DNA of 64,000 nt, taken from NCBI GenBank assembly GCA_028279365.1, contig JANQNX010000010.1, positions 332,206 through 396,205 on the forward strand, read 5' to 3'. The DNA comes from Gammaproteobacteria bacterium. Lineage in GTDB: Bacteria > Pseudomonadota > Gammaproteobacteria > Eutrophobiales > Eutrophobiaceae. The position numbers and the translations under genes were made by a program. This document shows, piece after piece, positions 215 to 8,239 of the stretch. Under the pieces are notes generated by a model. The model did no database searches, was not told the DNA's origin, and saw only the letters and a list, made by a program, of their open reading frames with translations. The stretch's first letter is position 1. Each line of letters starts with the position of its first letter.

Positions 215-1189
215 TTAAACCCCGGCCAGAAATGAAACCCCTGCAGCACCGTAATTAACATCGACAGGATTTTCTCCTGTTTCGTGAACGCGTTTTACCC
301 GGAATTGATGAAAGTCAGATAACTGTTGCTTTAGCGAGACTTCAGGCGCAGTTTTATCTGCATAATGCTCACGATGTAACTGCGGCAGACGATGCCAGGG
401 TTCAGCGGGTCGATGATGATGCACATTGTGATAACAAAAGTTTAATACCAGCAAATTTAAGCACGGATATTTTTCAGATAGCAAATTACTCCAGGTGTGT
501 GCCTCTTCATAATTCCGATCGAATTCTGGAAACACTTTCTCTTCATCCAGGTTCACCCGTACTTCATAGATATGTTGAAATGCATCCATAAAGCCCAGCA
601 CCCTTATGAAGAGCAAGTAAGCAAGGCTATAGATAATCATTGTTTTCCAACTCCAAAGGGCCAATGCAGAAAAAAACAGAAAACGTAAACCCAGAATAGT
701 TAGCACCCTATTTCGCTGATGTTTACGCGCAGGCAAAATAAATGGCGCAGCAATGCTTAATATATGCGTTAATATTTCTACTGCCGGAATGTAAAACCAT
801 TCCAGTATTTCAACCAGGTGGCAAATCATAGGGTGTTTTTCTAAAAAAGCCTGGTGATCAATCGCAAGGGAATCGACCCGGTTCGCATGATGGCGCATAT
901 GTTTCTTTTTCAAACACTCGTATTCCGAATAACAGGCACCGGTAATCCATGATAATGCGCTGGCCAGCGCTATATTCTTATGATTATCACGTAATAAGGT
1001 TTTATGTATGCATTCATGCAATAAATACGCAGCAATGATCAGGCTATGCGATAGCAATAATAAGGCTAGTAGATTTAATAAAAGATTATCTTGTGCTGCC
1101 CAGTAAAAGGATAAGATGTAACCGGTAAACACATAGACAAACGCACAAAAGTTAGGAATAACACCATCACGATATTTGAATAATTGCAT
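215..1189 (-). CDS. Membrane di-iron fatty acid desaturase/hydroxylase family protein
   Basis: A 324-residue integral membrane protein with the three histidine clusters of the FA_desaturase superfamily: HECIH near residue 58, HMRHH near residue 97 and HNVHHH near residue 254. These clusters hold a di-iron site that uses O2 to desaturate or hydroxylate a substrate. Hydrophobic segments lie at about 14-55, 133-153 and 165-200. The family also includes alkane and other small-molecule hydroxylases, so lipid desaturation should not be assumed. It sits about 70 bp behind the GS-like gene and 3 bp before the isomerase-like gene, inside the operon led by the guanidine-type riboswitch. That context hints at a nitrogen compound as substrate, which is inference. 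Confidence 0.8.
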   Translation of the reverse strand: MQLFKYRDGVIPNFCAFVYVFTGYILSFYWAAQDNLLLNLLALLLLSHSLIIAAYLLHECIHKTLLRDNHKNIALASALSWITGACYSEYECLKKKHMRHHANRVDSLAIDHQAFLEKHPMICHLVEILEWFYIPAVEILTHILSIAAPFILPARKHQRNRVLTILGLRFLFFSALALWSWKTMIIYSLAYLLFIRVLGFMDAFQHIYEVRVNLDEEKVFPEFDRNYEEAHTWSNLLSEKYPCLNLLVLNFCYHNVHHHRPAEPWHRLPQLHREHYADKTAPEVSLKQQLSDFHQFRVKRVHETGENPVDVNYGAAGVSFLAGV

Positions 1190-1258
1190 AACATCATCTC
1201 GCTTCCGGGTCGTCCCAATAATAAATACACGTTAAAGGTCGTCCCTTAACGTATTACT

Positions 1259-2650
1259 CTAGAATAAATGACTATACCGCTCTATCTCCCAGGCACTGAC
1301 ACTCTGGTGATACTCTTCCCACTCTTCTGTTTTATAACGAATAAATTCGTCTTTCAATTCTTTACCTAAAGTGGCTTCGATTAAAGGGTCATCAGTAAAG
1401 GCCTGGACTGCCTCAGCCAATGTTTGTGGTAAGAACTCGATACCGCGTTTCGTGCGTTCCTCATCGGTTAATTCATATAAGTTATCTTCCTGTGGACTTC
1501 CCGGATCAATCTTTTCGCGCACGCCTTCCAGACCAGCCGCTAATGCTAATGTCGCGGCCAGATAAGGATTCACTGACCCATCAGCATTACGGGATTCGCA
1601 ACGTCCCCCGCCCATGGGCACACGAACTGAATTGGTTCGATTATTGGAACCATAGGAATTAAATACCGGTGCCCAACTAAAATAACTCATCGCACCTTGC
1701 CTGACCAAACGTTTGTAACTGTTTACCGTGGGTGCAAACGCGGCACATAAGGCGCGGCCATGTTTTAAGATACCTCCAATAAAATAATAGCCGGTTTCGG
1801 TTAGACCTAAACCGCGCGTATCGTCTTTTGGATCACAGGCAAAGACATTATCGCCTGATTCCAGATCGAACAAAGACATATTAAAATGCGCACCATTACC
1901 GGTTTTATCCTTAAACGGTTTTGGCATAAAGGTCGCGATCAAGCCCTCATCTTTGGCGTAACGTTTGGCCAGTTCACGAAAGAAGATAAACCGATCACAC
2001 ATGCTTAACGCATCAGCATAATTAAAATCAAATTCAAACTGACCGTTAGCGTCTTCGTGATCAAACGAATAAAGATCCCAACCAAGATCGTTAATAGTCT
2101 CGGCCATGCGATCCAGCCAATCGAAATTATCCATAAAACCGCGAATGTCATAACACGGTTTGACTAACTTATCGTCCATATTCGGAATATGTAAGCTACC
2201 ATCAATATCCTGTTCCAGTAAAAATACTTCGCATTCAATCCCCAGATTAAAACCAAAGCCTAATTCTTCTGCTGCTTGCAGCTGCTGTTTTAATGCAACA
2301 CGAGTATTTAATTTATAAGGTTCACCCTTAAAGGTATTATCCGCCGGCATCCAGGCAAGCTTGGGTTCCCATGGGCATTGAATAATATGATCGAGATCAG
2401 GCACTGATGCGATCTCATCATCATTCGGTTTTTGTCCCAGGCCATCCAGGGCATAGCCGGTGTAAAGCTCGGAGCCATGTGCCATATGTAACAGATGGTC
2501 AATCGGCACTACCTTGCCTTTAGGCACACCGTGAATATCGACATAGGCACCCATACAATAACGTACACCCTTGTCTTTTAATTCCTGTTGGATGGCAAGA
2601 ATTTCTTCATCCGTTTTATCATCAATGCAAGAGTTTGTTTTCGTATCCAT
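1259..2650 (-). CDS. Glutamine synthetase-like glutamate-amine ligase (GlnT/GmaS type)
   Basis: About 463 residues from the chosen ATG, which lies 13 bp after the creatininase gene; an upstream GTG at 2710 would overlap that gene and add residues untypical of the family. The GS catalytic core is intact: an ECEVF Glu pair, an NGQFEFDF segment, GNGAHFNMS (the GNGxHxN loop), [18 protein letters not shown] and RCESRNAD near the C terminus. The N terminus ([17 protein letters not shown]) resembles the GlnT and gamma-glutamylmethylamide synthetase (GmaS) group rather than GlnA. These enzymes use ATP to join the glutamate gamma-carboxyl to ammonia or an amine. Here it may glutamylate an imported guanidino or amine compound, or reassimilate released ammonia. 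No strong ribosome site is visible. Confidence 0.8.
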
Positions 2651-2663
2651 GTCAAGAACTGGA

Positions 2664-3416
2664 CTAATTAAAATAAGATTGATCAAGCGGCGGCTGTTCA
2701 GACAAACCACTTTGTATTAATTCTGATAAGTCTTCGACCATCCATTGAAAGGCCTGATCGCCTTTCTGTTTTGTCGCCAAAGAAGGTTGGCCGGTGACAC
2801 CATTGGTACTAGTACGATTAACCGGGTGCGCAAAAACCAGTCCATCAGTCCTATCCGGATCGTCTGCCTCGTTTAACTTTTCCATGTCAACCATGTCTGC
2901 TGCAACTGACAGCATTAGTGAGGTCTCTGCATCATTGGCATGCCAGTCATCACCATCGGCGAAATGAAATGCTTTAACGCGGTCACTGATGCTGGCAGAA
3001 TTGATAACAGACACCATGAGGTCATCATGTTCTGCTCGCAGCATTTCCAATGCACAGCGTAGTGGTGCGGCATTCGTCACATGGGTATTAATAATGAATA
3101 ATCGTTTAACACCACTGTAATAGGCCCAATCGCCCATCTGTTTAATTAAATCGATCAACGTCGTTGGTTGTATAGCAATCGTACCCGGCCAGCGTTGGCT
3201 ATGACCTATCGAACAACCATAGGGCATGGTTGGCAGCATCATGACCCCAGTCTCTTTTGCAACAGCCTTACAGAGTTTATCGGCCAACACCGCATCCATA
3301 CCACAACCCATATGTGGTCCGTGTTGTTCCGTTGCGCCAATGGGTAGTATCGCTGCCGGAATCTGCTGCAGTTTCTCAGCAACATCCGGCCACGGCATTT
3401 TTTCCAGCAAGGTCAT
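2664..3416 (-). CDS. Creatininase-family metal-dependent amidohydrolase
   Basis: 250 residues of the creatininase fold, a family of cytoplasmic metalloenzymes that open cyclic amides (creatinine) or hydrolyse other C-N bonds. The metal-binding pattern is recognisable: GATEQHG gives E30 and H32, and D41 follows at the spacing seen in Pseudomonas creatininase. A later [10 protein letters not shown] supplies the conserved Glu. The usual NGHGGN loop is changed to NTHVTN, which keeps the His but loses both glycines, so the substrate may differ from creatinine. Its ATG overlaps the ATPase stop by 4 bp, showing translational coupling in the transporter operon. Likely role: hydrolysis of the imported guanidino compound or of a derivative of it. 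Confidence 0.82.
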
Positions 3417-4315
3417 GGTTCAACCTCATCTCCAACACGCGTTAAACGGATCATATTCAGTTTGTCATCGTCATCTTCCGTTGAAGGCGGATGAATGAGT
3501 TCATCGATACGTTTGCGTGTCGCTAAAAATTCCGGAGTAATAAATTGTTCAACATCACGTGGTCGTGGTACCGGTACTTCGATAACTTCTTCGACTTCAC
3601 CCGGATGGGACTTTAAAACAAGAATACGGTCAGCCAGATAGATCGCTTCATCCAGATCATGCGTAATAAACAAAACAGTAATATCAATATTATGCCAAAT
3701 CTGTAGCAAGTAAGACTGCATCTTGCAGCGCGTTTGTGCATCCAGCGCACCATAGGGCTCATCCATTAACAATATACGCGGTTTATTTGCTAACGCTCTG
3801 GCAATAGCGACACGTTGTTTCATCCCGCCTGATAATTGATCAGGATAAGCATCGGCGAATTTTTCCAGACCAACCAGATCAATCCACTGTAATGCTTCAC
3901 TTTCTGCTGTGGCATAGCTCATACCCTGGCTGCGCAAACCAAACATCACATTTTTCTTAACCGTTAACCACGGGAATAAGGTATAACCCTGAAATACCAT
4001 GCCTCTATCAGGACCGGGGCCGGATACCGGCTTACCATCTAACAATACTTGACCGGAAGAAGCCGATTCCAAACCGGCCAGGATTCGTATTAAGGTCGAC
4101 TTACCACAACCGGAAGCCCCAATCACACAGACAAATTCACGCCGGTGCGCTTTAAAATTAATGTTTTTTAAGGCGGTCACATCACCTTTCGGTGTGGAAA
4201 ATATTTTTTGTAAGTCCTTTACTTCCAGGATGACTTCGCGTTGCTTTATTTCATCAAAGCGTTGTTTAACTTCATCGCTTTGTTCAAGATAGCTAGGCAA
4301 TTCTATTTTAGTCAT
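3413..4315 (-). CDS. NitT/TauT-type ABC transporter ATP-binding protein
   Basis: A 300-residue ATPase with Walker [11 protein letters not shown]-loop in [11 protein letters not shown], signature [15 protein letters not shown], Walker [13 protein letters not shown] and H-loop FITHDLDEA. This is the SsuB/TauB/NrtC subgroup that powers uptake of nitrate, sulfonates, taurine and similar small solutes. About 35 residues precede the core domain and about 40 charged residues follow it. It starts 9 bp after the permease gene and overlaps the creatininase gene by 4 bp. Transporters of this group are common cargo of guanidine-I riboswitches, so guanidine or a related cation is the favoured solute. Confidence 0.93.
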
Positions 4316-4324
4316 ACTGCTCTC

Positions 4325-5290
4325 CTAAGCCTTATTCGCTGCTTTTTCCCAGGGAAAAATATGTTTACCGATCTTGGCCAGGATCATGTCGGATAATAAA
4401 CCGATGATGCCGATCATCATGATGGCAGCAAAGACATTATCAAAGTTTTTATAACGTGCCTGTTGCGTAATAAACCAGGTAATACCCGAGCTCGTACCGA
4501 TTAATTCTGCAACGATTAGATAGGTCCAGGCCCAACCTAACAGGATACGCAAGTCGCGATACAAATCCGGAATGATCCCGGGAATCACGACCTTAAATAA
4601 TAACTGTAAGCGTTTCGCACCTAAGGTTAATGCGGCTTCCAATAAGGCAATATCCAGTTTGCGTGTGGTATTGGAAATTACCAACACCTGCTGAAAGAAT
4701 GTCCCGATAAAGATAATCGCTATCTTGGGTCCATCATGAATACCAAGTATTGCAACCGCTAATGCGCCGAACGCAGGTGCGGGTAAGTAACGAAAAAATT
4801 CAACAAACGGTTCATTTAATCGCGAGACAGCGGCATAGGTACCACACAACACACCCAATGGTACGCCGATTAATGATGAAAGCGTAAACCCCCAAAAGAT
4901 GATGGTAATGCTATGCCATAAACTTTCATGCAACCACTTTTCACTTCTTCGTCTTGGTTCTGTTGTAAACGATGTAACAAACGCCTTGGCGACTTCATGC
5001 GGTGCAGGAAGATAAATAGGATTTGCCGGTTCACCATCAGGTAACAGCTTACCTGTTTCTTCCATCTTACCTGTCTCTTTATCAAACACTTCACGGTCGA
5101 CTAACATGTCAACCTTGAAGTAAGAGACATCGCCTGGCTCAACAATCTTTACCTTGGGATGCCATAAAAAAGGAAGATAACTCACTGCACTCCAGATTAA
5201 GAGTGGCAACAAAAATGACGCAATCGTCAGCACCCTGGTGCGCTTTAAAGATAAAGCGACACGCGGTGCAAACCAGGGGACTGAACTCAT
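4325..5290 (-). CDS. NitT/TauT-type ABC transporter permease
   Basis: A 321-residue inner-membrane permease of the BPD_transp_1 family. One N-terminal membrane segment (about 22-43) is followed by a roughly 60-residue polar insert rich in Asp, Glu and Lys. Five further segments then carry the EAA loop (EAALTLGAKRLQLLFKVVIP) that contacts the ATPase. The insert between the first and second membrane spans is longer than in typical SsuC or TauC proteins. It presumably lies in the periplasm, where it could contact the binding protein. It is flanked by its binding protein (19 bp away) and its ATPase (9 bp away), so the importer is complete. Confidence 0.92.
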   Translation of the reverse strand: MSSVPWFAPRVALSLKRTRVLTIASFLLPLLIWSAVSYLPFLWHPKVKIVEPGDVSYFKVDMLVDREVFDKETGKMEETGKLLPDGEPANPIYLPAPHEVAKAFVTSFTTEPRRRSEKWLHESLWHSITIIFWGFTLSSLIGVPLGVLCGTYAAVSRLNEPFVEFFRYLPAPAFGALAVAILGIHDGPKIAIIFIGTFFQQVLVISNTTRKLDIALLEAALTLGAKRLQLLFKVVIPGIIPDLYRDLRILLGWAWTYLIVAELIGTSSGITWFITQQARYKNFDNVFAAIMMIGIIGLLSDMILAKIGKHIFPWEKAANKA

Positions 5291-5309: not shown

Positions 5310-6296
5310 TTATTTAGCCATGGTTATCGAAGGATCGATGTAACCGTCGATGCCTTGTGCATCTTTATACACTTCATACTTCAGGTTGAAGTCGTCGGCT
5401 ATCTTTGACGAACCGTATAAGGATGTAAAACCATCACCTTTAGCAAAGAAAGCTTTTGCTTCATCAAGCGTCAGGATCTTCGTGCCAGAAAGAAAAGGTT
5501 TATATTCTTCTGGTGTCACACCAACCCTGGCCGCCATGATTGACACTGCTTCGTCCTGGGTAGCAGGGTCTTTGATGAAACTGACAGCCTTGTACCAGAC
5601 ATCGACCACCTTGGACCAGGCTTCTTTGTTCGCAGCCAGACTGCTTGGTGATACCGCCAATACGTCATAGATCAAACCTGGTTCATCTTTAGACGTGTAA
5701 ATTGCCTTTGAACCTGGAACCAAAGTTAATGCCTGACCTGAACTGGGCTGCCAGGCCACAATGGCACTGACATCACCGGAGGCTAAGACTTGAGGTGTTT
5801 CATTGGTAGGAACATTAACCAATTCAACATCAGCTTCAGTCATGCCGCTTTTTTCCAGAGCATTTAACAGTAATAAATGACCGACAAAACCAATTTCAAC
5901 GCCGATTTTTTTTCCTTTCAGGTCTTTAATACTTTCAATACCTGGCGCAGCAACCACCATGTCATTACCGTTACTGTAGTCATTAATAATGATCATGACA
6001 TTACTCGCACCCGTTGCACCTGTTACCAGGGCATCGCCGTTAGTCATCGCAACTGCATCTAACTTACCGGCAGCAAAGGCATCCATTGAAGCCACATAGT
6101 CAAACCATTCAAATTCCACATCAATGCCGACTTCCTTAAACATGCCTTTTTCAATCGCGACTTCCCAGGCAACCCAACCCGGCCAATCACTGTAACCAAT
6201 TTTTAACGGTTCGGCTTGAGCAGATAGAGACATACTGCTGGTAAACAGGGTAGCAACCAGAACTAAAACATTACGTAAAGACTTATGAAGCTTCAT
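5310..6296 (-). CDS. ABC transporter periplasmic binding protein, NitT/TauT (SsuA/ThiY-like) family
   Basis: 328 residues beginning with a Sec signal peptide ([18 protein letters not shown], cleavage likely after SAQA near residue 28). The mature part has the NMT1/SsuA/ThiY pattern: [11 protein letters not shown] at its start, [28 protein letters not shown] and [13 protein letters not shown]. Acidic and aromatic residues near the first strand (SDWPGW, FEWFDY) would suit a cationic ligand, although that is inference. It is the first gene of the operon, with a strong GAGGGGAA ribosome site three bases before the ATG-proximal TTT. It lies directly behind the guanidine-I-type riboswitch, which makes guanidine or a guanidino compound the most likely ligand. 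Confidence 0.92.
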
Positions 6297-6320
6297 AAAC
6301 TTCCCCTCGTTGGTTTGTTG

Positions 6321-6370
6321 AAAAAATTATTGAATGAGAGGTTTGATCACAGACAAGCTGTTTACCTCCC
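6321..6370 (-). terminator. Candidate riboswitch expression platform (terminator-like alternative stem)
   Basis: On the minus strand the aptamer's 3' block GGGAGGT (6370-6364) can pair with ACCTCTC (6342-6336), with one G-U pair. A run of six T follows at 6326-6321. Pairing would destroy the aptamer, as expected for an ON switch in which ligand binding prevents termination. The T run starts about 9 nt after the stem, so the terminator is imperfect. CCTCTC could instead pair with the GAGGGG ribosome site of the binding-protein gene, giving a competing translational fold. Confidence 0.5.
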
Positions 6371-6477
6371 GGGCTTTTATCCCGCCGTGTAACCTTCGCG
6401 TTGAAGGTCGATTGCTCTCGGACCAGTCGCGCTTGAATTAATGCGCCGGAACCCTAGCAATCCTTTGAAATGCAGCT
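6356..6477 (-). promoter_or_regulatory. Guanidine-I (ykkC subtype 1) riboswitch aptamer
   Basis: Read on the minus strand, the leader contains in order the hallmark blocks of the ykkC RNA. CTAGGGTTCCG is at 6457-6447, GGTCCGAGAG at 6424-6415, and ACACGGCGGGATAAAAGCCC followed by GGGAGG at 6390-6365. The closing stem can form between AGCTG (6477-6473) and CAGCT (6360-6356). A variable hairpin, AACCTTCGCGTTGAAGGT when read on the plus strand, lies at 6391-6408. The downstream genes (a nitrate/taurine-type importer and nitrogen enzymes) match known guanidine-I cargo better than the ppGpp or PRPP variants, whose usual genes concern amino acid or purine synthesis. Recognition is by eye against the known consensus. 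Confidence 0.93.
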
Positions 6478-6519
6478 ATCGTGAAATCATTAATAGCTCT
6501 CGTTCTTAAATGAATAGAG

Positions 6520-6535
6520 CGCAATATGCATGCCA
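6520..6535 (-). promoter_or_regulatory. Sigma-54 (-24/-12) promoter of the riboswitch operon
   Basis: On the minus strand the sequence TGGCATG-CATA-TTGCG matches the sigma-54 consensus TGGCACG-N4-TTGCW with two substitutions. The essential GG and GC doublets are 10 bp apart, as required. Transcription would start near 6509, about 30 nt before the riboswitch aptamer. Such promoters need an enhancer-binding activator, and NtrC-like sites lie upstream. Confidence 0.75.
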
Positions 6536-6586
6536 TGCCTGAAACATAATAAAAATAAGGCTTTCCGAGTCATAGCCAAACTACTA

Positions 6587-6603
6587 TGCGTTGATCTGGT
6601 GCA
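6587..6603 (+). promoter_or_regulatory. NtrC-like enhancer site, promoter-proximal
   Basis: TGCGTTGATCTGGTGCA fits the NtrC dyad TGCACC-N5-TGGTGCA perfectly in its right half and partly in its left half. It is centred about 86 bp upstream of the predicted sigma-54 start at 6509, a usual enhancer distance. Confidence 0.55.
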
Positions 6604-6617
6604 GTATTTATTATGGA

Positions 6618-6634
6618 CGAACCAATACTGTGCA
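6618..6634 (-). promoter_or_regulatory. NtrC-like enhancer site, promoter-distal
   Basis: On the minus strand TGCAC-AGTAT-TGGTTCG matches the NtrC dyad at TGCAC and TGGT. It is centred about 117 bp upstream of the predicted start and 31 bp (three helical turns) from the proximal site, close to the spacing of the paired NtrC sites of enterobacterial glnA. The two sites lie within or beside a longer inverted repeat with ATCTGGT (6594-6600) and ACCAGAT (6641-6647) as outer arms. Confidence 0.55.
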
Positions 6635-6718
6635 TTTAAAACCAGATTGTGGGATAGTTGTAGTAAGCATTCATTAACCGATAGTATTTAGGTTTTAAAA
6701 GCATCAAGGACGATGGTA

Positions 6719-8239
6719 ATGAGCACAGCAAGGATTTATTCACGGGCACAGGATGGCGTCAACGCACCGCTGGTGAATGTCGAAGTGCACCTGTCGCGCG
6801 GACTACCTAGCTTCACGATTGTCGGATTACCGGAAACCACAGTAAAAGAGAGTAAAGAGCGTGTTCGCAGCGCGATCCTGAATAATCAGTACGAATTTCC
6901 ATTAAGCCGCATTACTATCAATCTAGCCCCTGCCGATCTACCCAAAGAGGGTGGACGTTTTGATCTACCTATCGCTATAGGCATTTTATTGGCCTCGGGA
7001 CAAATACATACTGACAATATCGATCAATATGAAATTGTCGGTGAGTTGTCACTGACAGGTGAACTAAGAAAAATAAGCGGTATCTTGCCGGTCGCCATCG
7101 CTACTGGCGAAACACGCCGACATTTAATCCTGCCTAAAGAAAATGCGGACGAGGCGACGTTGGTCGAGAACATCATCTGTAAACCTGCGGGTCATTTATT
7201 AGAGGTCGCCGCGCATTTTTCCGGCGTCACACCCATTAATGACTGGCAAGCTACCTCACCGGATGCTGACACTGACTATCCCATTGATATGAATGATATC
7301 TATGGTCATGAACACGCCAAGCGTGCTTTGGAGATTGCGGCAGCCGGCGGCCACAACCTGTTATTCATGGGCAACCCCGGCTCCGGCAAGACCATGCTAG
7401 CGGAACGCATGACCACCATCATGCCGCCATTAACTAATACACAGGCATTGGAAAGCGCGGCTATTGCGTCAATCAGTCATCAGGGCTTCGATACCAAACA
7501 ATGGCAACATCGTATTATGCGTGCGCCACATCATTCAGCCTCTGCCGTGGCACTGGTTGGCGGTGGCAGTCATCCAAAGCCAGGGGAAATATCACTCGCA
7601 CATTATGGATTATTGTTTCTGGATGAACTCCCCGAGTTTGATCGCAAGGTCTTGGAAGTCTTGCGCGAACCACTGGAATCCGGCCGCATTGTAATCTCCC
7701 GTGCGGCCAGACAAGTCGAATTCCCGGCAAAGTTTCAGTTAATTGCGGCAATGAATCCCTGCCCCTGCGGTTATCTGGGAGACAGCAGCGGTCGCTGTCG
7801 CTGTACTGAAGAACAAATTAATCGCTATCAACAAAAAATATCAGGACCGTTGCTGGATCGCATCGATATGATTATTGAGGTAAATAGTATCCCAGAGGCA
7901 ATGCTGCAAAAACAACGTGATAACAAGGGCGAACACAGTGCGGCGATTCGCGAGCGAGTAGTGGCTGCAAATGCAGTGCAACAAAATCGCCAACAAAAAT
8001 CAAATGCCATGCTAACGAATAAACAAGTTGAACAATATTGCCAACTTGATCAACAACAACGGGAATTACTCTTACAAGCAACGCGTAAACTGGGCTTATC
8101 AGGCCGGGCGCTACATCGAATAATGAAGGTCGCGCGAACCATTGCCGATCTGGCCAACAGCGAGTATTTACATATCAATCATTTATCCGAAGCCATCAGC
8201 TACCGGCAAAAGCAACTGTCTGCACAAATCATCGCATAG
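6719..8239 (+). CDS. comM: ComM/YifB family Mg-chelatase-like AAA+ ATPase
   Basis: 506 residues from the ATG at 6719, preferred over the one at 6713 because the AAGGA ribosome site then has a spacing of 8 bases. An N-terminal Lon-like domain (ARIYSRAQDGVNAPLVNVEVH, GLPSFTIVGLPETTVKESKERV) precedes the AAA+ domain with Walker A GNPGSGKTM and a C-rich segment CPCGYLGDSSGRCRC. In naturally transformable bacteria ComM is a branch-migration helicase that extends heteroduplex during DNA integration. The gene is divergent from the transporter operon, so its promoter shares the intergenic space with the sigma-54 control region. Confidence 0.95.
   Translation: MSTARIYSRAQDGVNAPLVNVEVHLSRGLPSFTIVGLPETTVKESKERVRSAILNNQYEFPLSRITINLAPADLPKEGGRFDLPIAIGILLASGQIHTDNIDQYEIVGELSLTGELRKISGILPVAIATGETRRHLILPKENADEATLVENIICKPAGHLLEVAAHFSGVTPINDWQATSPDADTDYPIDMNDIYGHEHAKRALEIAAAGGHNLLFMGNPGSGKTMLAERMTTIMPPLTNTQALESAAIASISHQGFDTKQWQHRIMRAPHHSASAVALVGGGSHPKPGEISLAHYGLLFLDELPEFDRKVLEVLREPLESGRIVISRAARQVEFPAKFQLIAAMNPCPCGYLGDSSGRCRCTEEQINRYQQKISGPLLDRIDMIIEVNSIPEAMLQKQRDNKGEHSAAIRERVVAANAVQQNRQQKSNAMLTNKQVEQYCQLDQQQRELLLQATRKLGLSGRALHRIMKVARTIADLANSEYLHINHLSEAISYRQKQLSAQIIA

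Follow-up and report, generated by a model that had tools for sequence, protein, structure and literature searches.

By the window we mean the whole 64,000-nucleotide stretch of DNA that was analysed. Close to its start lies a minus-strand operon whose first gene, encoding the substrate-binding protein (SBP) of an ABC transporter, is preceded by a guanidine riboswitch, a sigma-54-type promoter and two NtrC-like dyads (Table 1). For the type III glutamine-synthetase-like (GS-III-like) ligase, the true start probably lies inside the listed GTG frame. The operon runs past the window start, and the downstream genes are found at L092 in the order TIM-barrel protein, Guanidine-I (Gd-I) aptamer, UAAP1, UAAP2, carboxyltransferase subunit and allophanate hydrolase. 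They are followed, at L092 171-3306, by a Gcw_chp-family gene, glnK, amtB and a second glnK; ahead of the first of these four stand an NtrC dyad and a sigma-54 site that scores weakly (12.1). Overall, the cluster holds three guanidine riboswitches, in the order Gd-I, Guanidine-II (Gd-II), Gd-I, of which the original prediction covered only the first. A promoter was detected for this first one only: no sigma-54 site of its own was found upstream of either inner riboswitch, that is, the internal Gd-II (L231) and the second Gd-I (L092 9132-9227, 87.9 bits, before UAAP1/UAAP2).

Table 1. Promoter, riboswitch and gene features of the operon in the window
Feature	Position	Strand	Details
Distal NtrC-like dyad TGCACAGTATTGGTTCG	6618..6634	-	Centre at about -117, score 10.9
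Proximal NtrC-like dyad TGCACCAGATCAACGCA	6587..6603	-	Centre at about -86, score 9.9
Sigma-54 (-24/-12) promoter ATGGCATGCATATTGCG	6520..6536	-	14.0 bits by PWM, top site of the window
Predicted transcription start	6509	-	From sigma-54 geometry, 12 nt past the -12 element
Leader, 41 nt, predicted start to aptamer	6469..6509	-	
Guanidine-I (Gd-I) aptamer	6364..6468	-	Rfam RF00442, 94.9 bits, E 5.9e-16
Candidate terminator hairpin	6336..6370	-	Stem of GGGAGGU (aptamer 3' end) and ACCUCUC
SBP of ABC transporter, NMT1/SsuA type	5310..6296	-	Pfam, NCBIfam
ABC transporter permease	4325..5290	-	Pfam BPD_transp_1
ABC transporter ATPase, ntrCD-like	3413..4315	-	Pfam, NCBIfam
Creatininase-family amidohydrolase	2664..3416	-	Pfam Creatininase 3.4e-70
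GS-III-like ligase	1259..2710	-	NCBIfam TIGR03105, 650.8 bits, over cut-off
Guanidine-II (Gd-II) riboswitch, inside operon	1206..1250	-	Rfam RF01068, 34.6 bits
Fatty-acid-desaturase-like membrane protein	215..1189	-	Pfam FA_desaturase 2.3e-27

The original prediction had placed ahead of the first riboswitch a TGGCATG-N4-TTGCG promoter with exact -24/-12 spacing, together with two NtrC-like dyads 31 bp apart at about -86 and -117. Both the promoter, on the minus strand at 6536-6520, and the dyads were found as stated. We scored sites with sigma-54 and NtrC matrices that were set by hand from known consensus sequences. In a scan of the whole 64 kb, ATGGCATGCATATTGCG outscored every other sigma-54 site. 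Its core, TGGCATG-CATA-TTGCG (6535-6520), carries the GG at 6534/6533 and the GC at 6522/6521, 12 bp apart, which is the correct -24/-12 spacing; compared with the consensus TGGCAYR-N4-TTGCW, the final base is G instead of A or T. RpoN is encoded in the genome (PF04552, 237.2 bits). Across the 3.14 Mb genome, the bare sigma-54 consensus had 14 matches, versus 11 for a reversed control. Therefore, the motif alone is little proof, and it is position and conservation that carry the case. Aligned sigma-54 sites are present at the close-relative loci L012-L016.

The two dyads form the sole pair in the 64-kb window that is 30-32 bp apart with each member scoring at least 9.9. Both are imperfect and deviate from a palindrome. 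Their positions and spacing agree with what is expected of NtrC dyads of the TGCACY-N5-GGTGCA type, which lie about 80-150 bp upstream and are helically phased. Their 5' half-sites, TGCACAG in the distal and GCACCAG in the proximal dyad, are conserved in close relatives: the distal half is kept in L012-L015, the proximal TGCACCAG is kept in L013-L015, and GCACCAG is found in L012.

The first Gd-I aptamer lies well above the gathering threshold of 63 bits, and its conserved core positions match in the alignment. The candidate hairpin that uses its 3' end has a predicted energy of -11.4 kcal/mol alone, and of -15.3 kcal/mol in L012. A U6 run at 6326-6321 starts 9 nt past the hairpin stem, which is atypical; the T run is kept in L012-L015. 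A formal terminator scan called no terminator. The expression platform may act on translation instead of transcription termination.

Conservation was quantified in 80 orthologous loci whose SBPs are 66-87% identical; being related, these loci are not independent samples. We searched up to 500 bp ahead of the SBP start and called a sigma-54 site at a score of at least 12, a cut-off close to the 99% level obtained with shuffled regions of 500 bp. Riboswitches were located by covariance model. A sigma-54 site was present upstream of the SBP in 69 of the 80 loci, and this held wherever the riboswitch stood. Of the 17 loci whose transporter leader contains Gd-I, 16 had the site; with Gd-I on a divergent enzyme operon, all 10 did; and with Gd-I internal, between transporter and enzymes, all five did. 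Even among the 48 loci with no Gd-I of these three kinds within the stretch examined, the site was found in 38. By these counts, the promoter is the constant part of the family and the riboswitch the movable part. Scanning orthologous leaders for the same sites had been put forward as a check on the prediction, and the outcome was clearly positive.

A few further features of these loci deserve mention. The creatininase-family and GS-III-like genes (1259-3416) accompany the transporter in many relatives that have no riboswitch in the transporter leader, including Thalassolituus, Methylophaga and Thiomicrorhabdus. Many loci of this kind (L026, L033, L039, L041, L042 and L063 among them) also have, after the GS-III-like gene or after the ATPase, an ORF of about 150 aa. 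Three records (L016, L084 and L088) whose titles name Klebsiella pneumoniae, Oxalobacteraceae and Verrucomicrobiaceae MAGs also carry the gammaproteobacterial type of operon; probably these records are misnamed or misbinned, or the operon was transferred.

We then looked at Gd-I more widely, in 369 genomes of Gammaproteobacteria and 398 of Pseudomonadota, and likewise at Gd-II, for which the covariance search supplied the positions, as strict regular expressions missed sites. In both Gd-I samples, the promoter lay 20-110 nt upstream at most sites. With the orthologues included, 79 of the 84 Gd-I leaders of transporter or assimilation genes had a sigma-54 site within 150 nt; among 150-nt windows drawn at random from the same loci, 1.3% had one. 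The sigma-54 core typically started 63-77 nt before the aptamer (median 73 nt). NtrC dyads were enriched as well. At 68% of 99 Gd-I promoters, an upstream dyad exceeded the 95% level of shuffled sequence, the corresponding figures being 6% for random regions and 3% for the leaders of exporters; in the phylum-wide sample, only half of the promoters had such a dyad. Pairs of dyads 30-32 bp apart numbered 18 in the orthologue sample, 20 in the class sample and 16 in the phylum sample, where 0.3, 0.5 and 0.6 were expected. Across samples, 30-32 bp was the modal spacing, and the predicted 31 bp lies at this mode of the family.

Which protein activates the promoter needs to be considered separately. 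The genome encodes one true NtrC (TIGR01818, 741 bits versus a cut-off of 558.6) and about nine further NtrC-like activators, full-length or partial. Some protein other than NtrC, such as a sensor of guanidine or another amine, could thus activate the promoter, and the imperfect dyads of the window, as well as the phylum-wide sample with above-chance dyads at only half of its promoters, fit such a possibility. We nevertheless regard it as unlikely. The dyads of the window match the NtrC consensus, and their position and spacing are as at glnK-amtB of the close relative L310, which is preceded by a sigma-54 site and two dyads 30 bp apart. The spacing of 30-32 bp recurs in three samples, transcripts of a Burkholderia operon described below are lost in an ntrC mutant, and no dedicated activator gene was seen beside the operon in the window. 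On these comparisons, NtrC is the likeliest activator among several possible sigma-54 activators.

The original prediction had also taken the ligand to be a nitrogen source rather than a compound to be detoxified, and the leaders of exporter genes allowed us to examine this reading. Protein size and a short motif at the N terminus served to identify exporters of the SMR family. None of the 36 Gd-II leaders of SMR exporters had a sigma-54 site, versus 79 of the 84 Gd-I leaders (Fisher p = 1.4e-25); in this contrast, riboswitch class is confounded with gene function. Gd-I and Gd-II leaders were compared because no Gd-I exporter leader was found in the Pseudomonadota samples. Gd-II also stands before desaturase-like genes at three sites, with a sigma-54 site at those of two relatives (L223 and L238) and none at that of the window.

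The genes of the operon point in the same direction as the leaders. UAAP1 and UAAP2, the carboxyguanidine deiminases CgdA and CgdB, and the allophanate hydrolase all scored over their cut-offs (TIGR03425, TIGR03424 and TIGR02713). The carboxyltransferase has an Asp aligned with Asn1330 of K. lactis urea amidolyase, a position that we take to be diagnostic for guanidine versus urea, and the Asp was found in 30 of 30 scorable carboxyltransferase sequences of orthologous loci. An importer, the deiminases, this Asp-bearing carboxylase, allophanate hydrolase and glnK-amtB make a gene set that, like the leaders, favours the use of the ligand as a nitrogen source. According to PMC12186494, guanidine carboxylases have Asp and urea carboxylases have Asn.

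The carboxylase gene (L092 5626-7626, 666 aa) encodes the carboxyltransferase part only; biotin carboxylase and biotin carrier domains are absent from it, so a single-chain carboxylase with all these domains is not encoded in the operon. The corresponding gene in L012-L015 likewise begins at the carboxyltransferase part. Elsewhere in the genome, the biotin carboxylase and carrier matches are AccC/AccB-like only, and the operon carboxylase may borrow such subunits. The desaturase-like protein (215-1189) and the TIM-barrel protein (L092 9281-10117) recur at guanidine loci, the former sometimes with a Gd-II and a sigma-54 site of its own, as at L223 and L238. They may act in place of MgdH/MgdL, with methylguanidine or a different substituted guanidine as substrate.

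Exporters are driven by guanidine riboswitches elsewhere (PMC12186494), and one could suppose that this operon, too, serves to detoxify guanidine and that its nitrogen promoter merely recovers nitrogen as a by-product. This is very improbable in our view: the transporter is an importer and not an exporter, the deiminase-allophanate hydrolase set is complete and comes with a carboxylase, the promoter is missing from the exporter leaders, and under a nitrogen-starvation promoter nitrogen-replete cells would stay unprotected. A true start at a sigma-70 promoter, with the riboswitch as sole control and a sigma-54 match by chance, has the lowest probability of all and was rejected: the sigma-54 consensus is barely above its reversed control in the genome, but no sigma-70-like site above chance was found in 6250-6750, and the sigma-54 site is aligned in close relatives and recurs at the rates given above in orthologous loci and Gd-I leaders.

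Several known systems come close to the proposed NtrC/sigma-54 and riboswitch control. The Gd-I operon of Vreelandella boliviensis (PMC12508155) has Gd-I first and Gd-II inside, an importer and the carboxylase pathway, and uses guanidine as a nitrogen source; its gene set comprises an ABC importer, CgdAB, guanidine carboxylase and MgdH/MgdL. Its proteins are high on guanidine, and on ammonium they are undetected or about a thousandfold lower (PMC12508155); that paper mentions neither NtrC nor the sigma-54 factor. The locus studied here differs in having three riboswitches, where the Vreelandella methylguanidine operon has two, in having desaturase-like and TIM-barrel proteins in place of MgdH/MgdL, and in its additional creatininase-family and GS-III-like genes.

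In Burkholderia cenocepacia H111, BCAS0269-0272 comprise SBP, UCA and carboxylase genes that are NtrC-dependent under nitrogen limitation (PMC5491218). In the ntrC mutant under this condition, urea carboxylase was lost (log2 -6.0); for the related SBP and the urea-carboxylase-related aminomethyltransferase, the same table has the entry na(m), which its note relates to the number of reads in the mutant (PMC5491218). The operon was published as one of urea metabolism, with guanidine unmentioned. A B. cenocepacia strain other than H111 carries a divergent pair of Gd-I aptamers, one with a sigma-54 site 55 nt ahead of it and the other with one at 50 nt. Finally, a survey of sigma-54 regulons predicted COG3665 (urea carboxylase related) as a target in alpha-, beta- and gammaproteobacteria (PMC12316311). 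The survey thereby predicts that this same family of genes is under sigma-54 control; the link to guanidine is absent there, and riboswitches are mentioned once, in the reference list. The canonical glnA and glnK-amtB promoters share with the window the -24/-12 core and the upstream NtrC dyads about 30 bp apart, but have no downstream riboswitch.

Taken together, these results suggest, with a probability that we put at roughly 0.85, that guanidine assimilation is controlled here through two inputs, an NtrC/sigma-54 promoter followed by a guanidine riboswitch. When nitrogen is short, phosphorylated NtrC would occupy the two upstream sites and activate sigma-54 polymerase at 6536-6520. The transcript would then cross the Gd-I aptamer, where bound guanidine would block the terminator-like hairpin that uses the aptamer 3' end. 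Judging from the riboswitch class, the operon would be read through only with guanidine present. The inner Gd-II, before the desaturase-like gene, and the second Gd-I, before the deiminase genes, would probably re-gate one long transcript. The products of the operon would take up guanidine, or compounds related to it, and break guanidine down to ammonia. We infer NtrC binding, sigma-54 initiation and guanidine-dependent read-through, and hence also the AND logic, by which nitrogen shortage and guanidine would both be needed; comparison across loci supports this logic well. Nitrogen-status control would be the constant layer across the family, with the position of the riboswitch varying.

With less confidence than for the window itself, we consider it probable that Gd-I in Pseudomonadota acts as a general AND gate with NtrC/sigma-54. 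Control by nitrogen status would be a near-universal first layer of guanidine assimilation, the riboswitch would form the movable second layer, the riboswitches of exporters would stand outside the circuit, and the window would hold a three-riboswitch version, probably on one nitrogen-controlled transcript. The parts are known, and their systematic combination appears to be undescribed in the open literature searched, where we found no paper joining NtrC/sigma-54 with guanidine riboswitch control and where, among the papers listed, the Burkholderia NtrC regulon and the sigma-54 survey were the relevant ones; an earlier mention elsewhere is possible.

The field has yet to settle why guanidine is sensed by so many bacteria, and whether it reaches them as a toxin or a nutrient. 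The pairing of a nitrogen-starvation promoter with a guanidine-sensing RNA across Pseudomonadota suggests that guanidine is food here and not poison. It offers an answer that could be read from sequence, the nitrogen-starvation promoter marking nutrient operons and its absence marking exporters. NtrC regulon data labelled 'urea carboxylase' would thereby become linked to guanidine metabolism.
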